Shown here: positions 57,182 to 59,891 of the stretch, in pieces | How positions within the stretch are numbered: position 1 is the first letter of the stretch | Layout: every line of letters begins with the position of its first letter | Origin: Allocoleopsis franciscana PCC 7113 | Lineage (GTDB): Bacteria > Cyanobacteriota > Cyanobacteriia > Cyanobacteriales > Coleofasciculaceae | Direction: 5' to 3' | DNA length: 64,000 bases | NCBI RefSeq assembly: GCF_000317515.1 | Contig: NC_019738.1 | Span: forward strand, 3,188,001-3,252,000 | Translations under genes and position numbers: made by a program | The notes under the pieces: generated by a model | The model's input: only the letters and a program-made list of their open reading frames with translations | Told to the model about the DNA's origin: nothing | Databases searched by the model: none

Positions 57182-57784
57182 ATGACGACGCTGCTAATTC
57201 AAACGATGAGTGTCCCACTGACGGTCAATCTTCCTGCTATCAAATCGATGAGTGTTGAACAATTTTACGAATTCTGTCTAGCCAATCGCGATTTGAGAAT
57301 TGAGCGTACTGCCAGTGGGGAAGTTATCATTATGCCGCCAGCTTTTTCAGATACAGGTAATCGAAACCTTAAAATTGCTCAGCAACTTGCGAACTGGGCA
57401 GAACAAGATGGCACAGGCGAAACGTTTGACTCCAGTGCAGGCTTTACTCTGCCGAATGGGGCAACTCGCTCCCCTGATGCCTCGTGGATTAAACTAGAGC
57501 GATGGAATGCTTTAACTGAAGAACAAAAAGCCTCATTTGCTCCGATTTGTCCAGACTTTGTGATTGAATTACGGTCTTCTAGCGATACTCTTAGTGGATT
57601 GCAAAAGAAGATGCAGGAATATATTGACAACGGTGCATCACTGGGATTGTTGATTGACCGCAAGAACCGAAAAGTTTATCTCTACCGTCCCAATCAAGAA
57701 CCGGAAATCTTGGATAATCCCGAAACAGTGAGTGGCGATCCAGAGTTACCAGGATTAGTCTTGCGGATGGCAAAAATCTGGTGA
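57182..57784 (+). CDS. Uma2-family (DUF820) putative endonuclease
   Basis: 200 residues. Uma2 pattern: MSVEQFYEFCLANRDLRIER, EVIIMPPAFSDTGNRN, SPDASWI (acidic metal site), CPDFVIELRSSSDTL (the D...ExK-type PD-(D/E)XK core), then MQEYIDNGASLGLLIDRKNR and VYLYRP. These proteins are very abundant in cyanobacteria, predicted nucleases of unknown target. It is on the opposite strand between WD40 paralogue 3 and the AAA_35-cyclase gene; the ATG follows GAGGAAAAACA. It may be a mobile or accessory insertion in the cluster. Confidence 0.9.
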   Translation: MTTLLIQTMSVPLTVNLPAIKSMSVEQFYEFCLANRDLRIERTASGEVIIMPPAFSDTGNRNLKIAQQLANWAEQDGTGETFDSSAGFTLPNGATRSPDASWIKLERWNALTEEQKASFAPICPDFVIELRSSSDTLSGLQKKMQEYIDNGASLGLLIDRKNRKVYLYRPNQEPEILDNPETVSGDPELPGLVLRMAKIW

Positions 57785-57835
57785 TTGATATCATTTTTAT
57801 AGAGTTAAAAGCTTAAAGAGTAATTGCCCATTCCA

Positions 57836-57880
57836 TCACAACAGATGTCTGTCCTCTTCCTTCACGTCGGCATTTGTCCG
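57836..57880 (-). pseudogene. Tail remnant of a fourth WD40 paralogue
   Basis: The minus strand reads [13 protein letters not shown] then a frameshift stop, matching the C-terminus of paralogue 3 ([16 protein letters not shown]). At DNA level 34 of 40 bases match by eye (57841-57880). One inserted T after CATCTGT breaks the frame. It begins 4 bp after the stop codon of the AAA_35-cyclase gene. Confidence 0.75.
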
Positions 57881-57884
57881 CGTT

Positions 57885-59726
57885 TTAGAACGTCAGTTGA
57901 TAAAGTGGCATCGGTTCTTCAATTCCCTCGAATTGCTCTTGTTTTATTTCAATGGGTAGTAAGGGAAGATAACTTTTGACGGCATCATAAACAACCTGAG
58001 AAATACAAATATCACCCGGAGCAATTTCAGCTTGTAGACGAGTAGCAATATTCACTCCAGGCCCAGTAACATCGATGCAATTGAAAATAACATCTCCTAG
58101 ATGAATGCCAATTCGATAAGTGAGGATGGGTTCAGTGGTACCTTCAGCAATTTTCCTGAAGGCTAGTTGAATTTCTTGGGCGCAGTTGACAGCATTAATG
58201 GTACTGGGAAAATAAATTAATAACCCATCTCCAGTAGATTTAAGAATTTGGCCTTCATATTGTTGACCTAACTGAGTTATGAACTGAAAGTTTTGGTAGA
58301 GTAAATTCTGCGTTTCTTCTGGGTCAGTACCCATCATTTCCGCCAATTCTACCACATTGATGGAAACAATCGTGGCGAGGCGATGTTCTTGGAGTAAATT
58401 TAACTGCAATTGGCTGAGGTGTTCGCTAAAATATCGACGGTACAAATCCCAACTAGGTACAACCTGCCCATTGACAAACCGCACCAGTCCCATACTGTGC
58501 AATTTAAACCCCTGTATGGGATCTAATTTCACAGGAGTGGGTGACATCACAACCCGTGTCAATGCGGTTACGAGATCGGGATACTGTTGAACATTCCACA
58601 ATTGTCGTCGCAAATAGTCTCTATAAATGCCATTTTCAGAGGTGGCGGTTGCTAATAACTGTTCTAGGGTGATGTCTTTGCCGCTAATGTGATACAGCGC
58701 TATATGCACCAGATAAGGATTTCCTCCAATCAACTCCATTAGGCGTTCTACTTCCTCAGTTTTCCAATCGAGTTGATGCCGAGTTGCTAAATCTTGGACT
58801 TGCAGTGGAGTAAACTCTGGCAAATCAATGGATAACCCTACATTAAAGGGGGATTGATTAACGTTAAGGGGGATATAAACTTCTGTGGAATGAACGATGA
58901 TTAACCGTAACTTTTGCCAAATCATGCTACTTTGCTCTGGATATTTAGCTTTCTGATACCAAGTTCGGAGCAATCCAAAAAAATCGGTAGCAATTTTGGG
59001 GTAATTGAACACTACATCCACTTCATCTAATGCCAAAACGACCGGACGATCAATTTCGGCTAACAAATAATTCTCGAAATAATCGGTGCAGTTGTAATTA
59101 CTGCCAAATACCTCATCCCAATACTCGTTTAATCGATTGGGGAGTTCCAAACGCCGAGTGACAACGGCACAAAACCACCGCAAAAATTGGCTTAAAGTCG
59201 TGAAAAGATCGGCATCAGCCAGTTGCAAGCTTAACGTTACTGTTTTAAAATCTTGTGTAATTGCCTCATCGAGAATCCTGACCATCAAAGAAGTTTTGCC
59301 CATTTGCTTAGGCGCTTTAATCCGAATCAAAGCTCCCGGTTGTAAGATGGCTTCATCGCAAAGTTGCTCAATGGGAGGACGCTCTATATAAAAAGGAGAA
59401 TTGAGAGGAACGTAACCTTTGACCATGATACTGGAGCGACTCTCACTCTCATTGGAATCAGGTTGAGTATAATCATCAACATTCAGCGTCAGATTAAACG
59501 TGCTGAAGTAGGACTCCAAGCTTTGTCGATCTACAGCAGCTTGGCGGCGTTGTACCTTAGCAATGGTATTGGGACTCATTTGTGTCCGTTCACCGATTTG
59601 TTCTAAAGTGTAGGGAACGCCATTGTTGTCTTCCATTTCCGACTGGCGCTGTGCCCTCTGTAAGCGCTGCCAACCTCGATACGTGAGAATGACACCTCGC
59701 TTACGCTTGGGGAGTTGACTTTTCAT
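57885..59726 (-). CDS. AAA_35 protein with degenerate class III cyclase domain
   Basis: 613 residues from the ATG at 59726 (TTG at 59759 disfavoured). Residues 1-90: basic start (KSQLPKRKRG) and a helix-turn-helix-like module (YTLEQIGERTQMSPNTIAKV). Residues 105-420: AAA_35 domain with Walker A QMGKTSL near 140 and VVLALDEVD as Walker B. Residues 440-605: class III nucleotidyl cyclase homology domain. The substrate Lys and second metal Asp are kept (LKSTGDGLLIYF), as are Asn/Arg of GPGVNIATRL. However, the first metal Asp is Asn457 (IVSINVVELAE), so catalysis is doubtful; it may bind nucleotides only. Same strand as the WD40 paralogues and part of the same AAA_35 cluster. Confidence 0.85.
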   Translation of the reverse strand: MKSQLPKRKRGVILTYRGWQRLQRAQRQSEMEDNNGVPYTLEQIGERTQMSPNTIAKVQRRQAAVDRQSLESYFSTFNLTLNVDDYTQPDSNESESRSSIMVKGYVPLNSPFYIERPPIEQLCDEAILQPGALIRIKAPKQMGKTSLMVRILDEAITQDFKTVTLSLQLADADLFTTLSQFLRWFCAVVTRRLELPNRLNEYWDEVFGSNYNCTDYFENYLLAEIDRPVVLALDEVDVVFNYPKIATDFFGLLRTWYQKAKYPEQSSMIWQKLRLIIVHSTEVYIPLNVNQSPFNVGLSIDLPEFTPLQVQDLATRHQLDWKTEEVERLMELIGGNPYLVHIALYHISGKDITLEQLLATATSENGIYRDYLRRQLWNVQQYPDLVTALTRVVMSPTPVKLDPIQGFKLHSMGLVRFVNGQVVPSWDLYRRYFSEHLSQLQLNLLQEHRLATIVSINVVELAEMMGTDPEETQNLLYQNFQFITQLGQQYEGQILKSTGDGLLIYFPSTINAVNCAQEIQLAFRKIAEGTTEPILTYRIGIHLGDVIFNCIDVTGPGVNIATRLQAEIAPGDICISQVVYDAVKSYLPLLPIEIKQEQFEGIEEPMPLYQLTF

Positions 59727-59891
59727 CGTAAATTGCTCAGCCTGCTTAAAATCAAACAAATCTTTCTTAGTTGATTTATTGTCCCACCCATTAGAGGGTA
59801 GAGTAATCTTGATTCAGGAAGCCGACAAAAATACCTCCGCCATTTTTGCCGTGTTTTCCAGCCCAAAGTGCGCTGTTATTTGGGGACTAGC

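Follow-up and report, generated by a model that had tools for sequence, protein, structure and literature searches.

At the RGA08 locus of wild banana, an NB-LRR cluster, remnants, unequal recombination and chimeras change the gene copy number between close relatives (PMC3017797). The NWD (NACHT-WD40) family of Podospora anserina, in which exchange of repeats between genes (concerted evolution) has been described, comprises paralogues and pseudogenes, one of them split by an inversion (PMC1805685). In cyanobacteria, repetitive WD40 propellers on STAND-type proteins are common, and operon-like NTPase gene pairs occur (PMC9218822).

The locus described here resembles RGA08 in being an array of receptor-like NTPase genes accompanied by remnants and chimeras, but the genes are cyanobacterial and of AAA_35-WD40 type, and two species were compared, whereas those of RGA08 are plant genes with LRRs (PMC3017797). 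With the NWD family it shares the NTPase-WD40 combination and the presence of paralogues and pseudogenes (PMC1805685); it differs in that the remnant here is a 3' tail, apparently left after a near-complete deletion. The proteins are NTPase-WD40 proteins of a cyanobacterium, as are those of PMC9218822, but that work concerns blade amplification, whereas gene loss and orphan tails are the features here. By analogy with the NTPase-WD40 and NB-LRR families, a sensor-like role may be proposed for the array, of which a literature search found no published description. The locus is a well-supported instance of ordinary birth-and-death in a STAND-like WD40 family, and reveals no new mechanism.

Organization of the array

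The window is a 64,000-nucleotide stretch of the genome of Allocoleopsis franciscana PCC 7113 (NC_019738.1, positions 3,188,001 to 3,252,000), in whose numbering coordinates are given unless a contig or locus is named. Three genes, P1 (46102-49668), P2 (49701-53288) and P3 (53378-56971), lie in tandem on the minus strand. All are AAA_35-WD40 genes as defined by an AAA_35 domain (PF14516) followed by WD40 repeats; for P3 the E values are 3.6e-31 and 1.6e-145, respectively. Upstream of P3 is a minus-strand HTH-AAA_35-cyclase gene of 624 codons (57885-59759; AAA_35, E 1.8e-148; Guanylate_cyc, E 1e-9), and between the two a Uma2-family gene on the plus strand (57182-57784; PF05685, E 4e-43) converges with the cyclase gene. 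The four-fold identity between the bodies of P3 and P1 is 0.672-0.746, compared with 0.737 for the P1 orthologues of the two species. The approximately 30 bases preceding the starts of P2 and P3 (53289-53320 and 56972-57003) are nearly identical, and the sequences farther upstream are unrelated.

The fragment behind the cyclase gene

A fragment (57841-57881, minus strand) situated where the Uma2 and cyclase genes converge resembles the 3' end of a WD40 gene and corresponds to about 14-16 codons (~40-50 bases). In a local alignment of minus-strand positions 57884-57785 with P3, 57881-57841 matched 53462-53422 at 35 of 41 bases, ungapped, with a score of 52, while 400 Markov-simulated fragments aligned with all three WD40 genes gave a maximum of 31 (mean 21.5, SD 2.2). 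The match of 34/40 between minus-strand 57841-57880 and the end of P3, on which a preliminary description of this DNA had been based, is thus far above chance. The assignment to P3 in particular is not supported. Over the 40-base stretch, the end of another AAA_35-WD40 gene of this genome (G000:C1:6650271) is also identical at 34 positions, compared with 27 for P2 and 20 for P1, and in a genome-wide DNA search the tail and the end of that gene were 85% identical over 41 bases (E = 2e-6). The tail differs from P3 and from the other gene at different sites, and the tie identifies it as a tail of the family rather than of P3 specifically.

The stop codon of the cyclase gene, TAA, occupies 57887-57885, and the tail begins 3-4 bases beyond it, as had been described. 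Translation of the minus strand gives 14 residues, followed by leucine and a stop; this is owing to an extra T, likewise reported earlier, which lies in a TT at about 57840-57841. From the sequence and the tail alignment, the extra T and the TGTGATGGA that follows it are placed at 57831-57842 on the minus strand, and past the extra T TGTGATGGA encodes the C-D-G ending of the WD40 family in the next frame. This fits a one-base insertion. The fragment is thus homologous to the 3' coding end of intact family members; most of the rest of the gene is missing, only 3 bases separating the fragment from the cyclase stop, and the frame is broken. The remnant is most likely without function. The suggestion that it is fused to the cyclase gene finds no support. 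A readable extension of the cyclase was rejected, as the tail lies behind the stop and its frame is +1 to that of the cyclase.

The preliminary description had also named an unrelated dispersed repeat as the finding that would count against a lost gene. In a search of two whole genomes, the WD40 tail of the 6650271 gene was the sole significant match; the next best (E 0.17) was an orphan WD40 tail in the same-genus genome G001, and the other matches listed covered 14-22 bases, which is chance level. As both the significant and the next-best match in these two genomes are WD40 tails, a dispersed or mobile repeat was rejected.

Comparison with related genomes

The same-genus comparison was made with one genome (G001, the sister). 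Here, the cyclase gene is followed after ~200 bases by the WD40 genes sP2 and sP1, and the locus lacks the tail, the Uma2 gene and P3. sP1 is the orthologue of P1, including its 5' flank. sP2 (L040:13709-17284) is a mosaic, in which a distinct AAA_35 head is joined near codon 450 to a body orthologous to that of P2. Up to alignment column ~455, most windows give an identity between sP2 and P2 of 0.53-0.90; past that column, the windows displayed give 0.89-0.98. The four-fold identity of the two heads is 0.528 (0.44-0.62), compared with 0.778 (0.74-0.82) for the bodies. A tree of AAA_35 heads places that of sP2 outside the clade of P1, sP1, P2 and P3 (ingroup support 100/99). In addition, the 5' flank of sP2 is unrelated to that of P2 and matches none of those of the other array genes. 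The missing tail and genes and the chimeric sP2 agree with the earlier view of a cluster in flux.

The simplest reading of these differences is an ancestor in which the gene immediately following the cyclase gene had a head of a fourth lineage. Alternatively, gene conversion may have overwritten the P2 head in this genome, the sister gene being the original P2. The heads of P2 and P3 have a four-fold identity of 0.652 (0.57-0.73), which would place their split at about the species split, consistent with conversion; however, orthologues have values of 0.70-0.78, and the split of the heads is possibly somewhat earlier.

A WD40 gene thus occupies the position behind the cyclase gene in the sister, but with the body of P2. 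An intact fourth gene at the exact locus was found in no genome, the genus being represented by G001 alone besides A. franciscana. The preliminary description had proposed that sister strains be searched at this junction for such a gene, with the cyclase gene absent or elsewhere; a WD40 gene is indeed present, but the cyclase gene is neither absent nor displaced.

In Microseira wollei NIES-4236, an intact AAA_35-WD40 gene with a tail of the same type lies ~110 bases behind a cyclase homologue. In the metagenome-assembled genome UBA11372, an AAA_35 gene that runs off the contig begins ~50 bases behind a cyclase relative, and an AAA_35 gene likewise comes next after the cyclase gene in Laspinema sp. 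D2d, in an uncultured member of the Oscillatoriales, and in genomes G051 and G038. This suggests that a WD40 gene is normally located directly behind this cyclase. The cyclase tree contains three supported pairs, namely the window gene with its G001 orthologue, a pair of paralogues, and the Microseira and UBA genes; it does not settle the order of the pairs, so that the Microseira cyclase may be the orthologue of the window gene or of its paralogue. The neighbourhood of a second cyclase paralogue in this genome (G000:C1:4614896, 65%) was considered and set aside: it contains neither a WD40 gene nor a tail, and the next gene is ~40 bp away.

Proposed history of the locus

As the cyclase gene is directly followed by a WD40 gene in both G001 and Microseira, such a gene has very probably been lost here, in keeping with the fourth WD40 gene postulated earlier. 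Given the usual arrangement in relatives, the remnant can be ascribed to ordinary gene-family turnover. In the reconstruction that we consider probable, the ancestral array would have had the order cyclase, an AAA_35-WD40 gene termed P4, P3, P2, P1. In the lineage of this genome, a deletion starting immediately behind the cyclase stop would have spared only about the last 16 codons of P4, which form the tail with its one-base insertion. In the other lineage, P4 and P2 would have recombined near codon 450, which joined the head of P4 to the body of P2 and removed everything between the two joining points.

Since the gene at this position in the sister combines a P2 body with an AAA_35 head of another lineage, the two species may have kept opposite ends of one gene, its end in this genome and perhaps its start in the other. 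We infer this common origin of the tail and the sP2 head, the tail being too short to be placed in a tree or joined to the head. The order of events and the mechanism of deletion are proposed on the same footing; the breakpoint is unreadable because the parental sequence is gone. The comparison within the genus documents loss and reshuffling in a bacterial sensor-like NTPase-WD40 array, and suggests that short tails can mark lost members when NTPase-WD40 repertoires are compared.

The main competing explanation is that the cyclase gene and P2 were separated by the insertion of a segment comprising a truncated WD40 end, the Uma2 gene and P3, so that no fourth gene ever existed and the sister arrangement would be ancestral. 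These three elements are exactly what the sister lacks, and the split of P3 from P1 is only about as old as that of the species. However, P3 is P1-like, which makes most of the segment look home-grown, and no donor with the order tail-Uma2-WD40 was present among the loci examined. In addition, the differences between sP2 and P2 in the head and the 5' flank would be left unexplained. We regard such an insertion as unlikely, though it deserves more weight than the explanations that follow.

The tail could also be filler from the repair of a break, copied over a short length from the WD40 end of P3 or of the 6650271 gene. Its shortness, its location at a junction and its equal similarity to two genes are consistent with this, as is the recurrence of orphan tails at other breakpoints (see below). 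An identity of 85% to either gene is not that of a recent copy, however, and the position behind the cyclase gene is the expected place of a WD40 gene; filler of this kind is improbable.

Replacement of the body of the fourth gene by the cyclase gene, originally proposed as an alternative to its deletion, has in its favour that the remnant starts 3-4 bases past the cyclase stop. It can practically be dismissed: the cyclase gene and its upstream neighbour form one continuous alignment with the sister (88% over 5.1 kb), the gene has a long-standing paralogue and relatives of its own, those in Microseira and UBA11372 are likewise directly followed by an AAA_35 gene, and its AAA_35 domain shares only ~26% identity with the AAA_35 domains of the WD40 genes. 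The cyclase gene, 88.9% identical to its G001 orthologue at the nucleotide level (four-fold identity 0.767), is on these sequence comparisons an old resident of the locus. The probable history thus remains loss of P4 from behind an undisturbed cyclase gene.

Orphan tails and heads elsewhere

A WD40 tail of the last ~20 codons stands isolated in G001 (L092:3183-3245). At the same place in the A. franciscana genome is an intact WD40 gene of 938 codons (L185:5437-8253), with an N-terminus that appears TIR-like by eye; the identity between the genomes is ~90% or higher in both flanks. Loss of a WD40 body leaving the tail has therefore very probably occurred elsewhere in the genus.

Other tails and heads were recovered as search matches, which do not amount to a census, and several short-frame matches at contig ends were set aside. 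In G001, an orphan WD40 tail is located behind an ABC-transporter-like gene (L093:1125-1178), and the corresponding spacer of the A. franciscana genome (~78 bases) contains neither tail nor gene. Another (L088:1589-1708) lies at the breakpoint of a rearrangement that distinguishes the two genomes, its flanks mapping ~68 kb apart and in opposite orientation in A. franciscana; on one side there, the adjoining gene (L183:2163-6137) contains WD40 repeats and ends without such a tail. A further orphan WD40 tail is present in L087 of G001. Also in G001 are two apparent orphan AAA_35 heads with open frames (C16:109075-109233, 124 codons; C7:120457-120615, 114 codons), so it is not evident that tails alone tend to be kept. 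It would be surprising if the conserved C-terminal segment proved to be a preferred boundary of deletion or recombination and the tails systematic footprints of lost sensor genes; were this so, past arrays could be read from orphan WD40 tails.

Displaced tails also occur next to WD40 genes. In G002, a tail (L090:1358-1441) directly follows the stop of a WD40 gene that ends in a POTRA-like segment (PF07244, E 4e-5), as if this segment had been inserted ahead of the tail. In G020, a WD40 gene (L086, near 1614-1706) has its conserved tail out of frame with the body.
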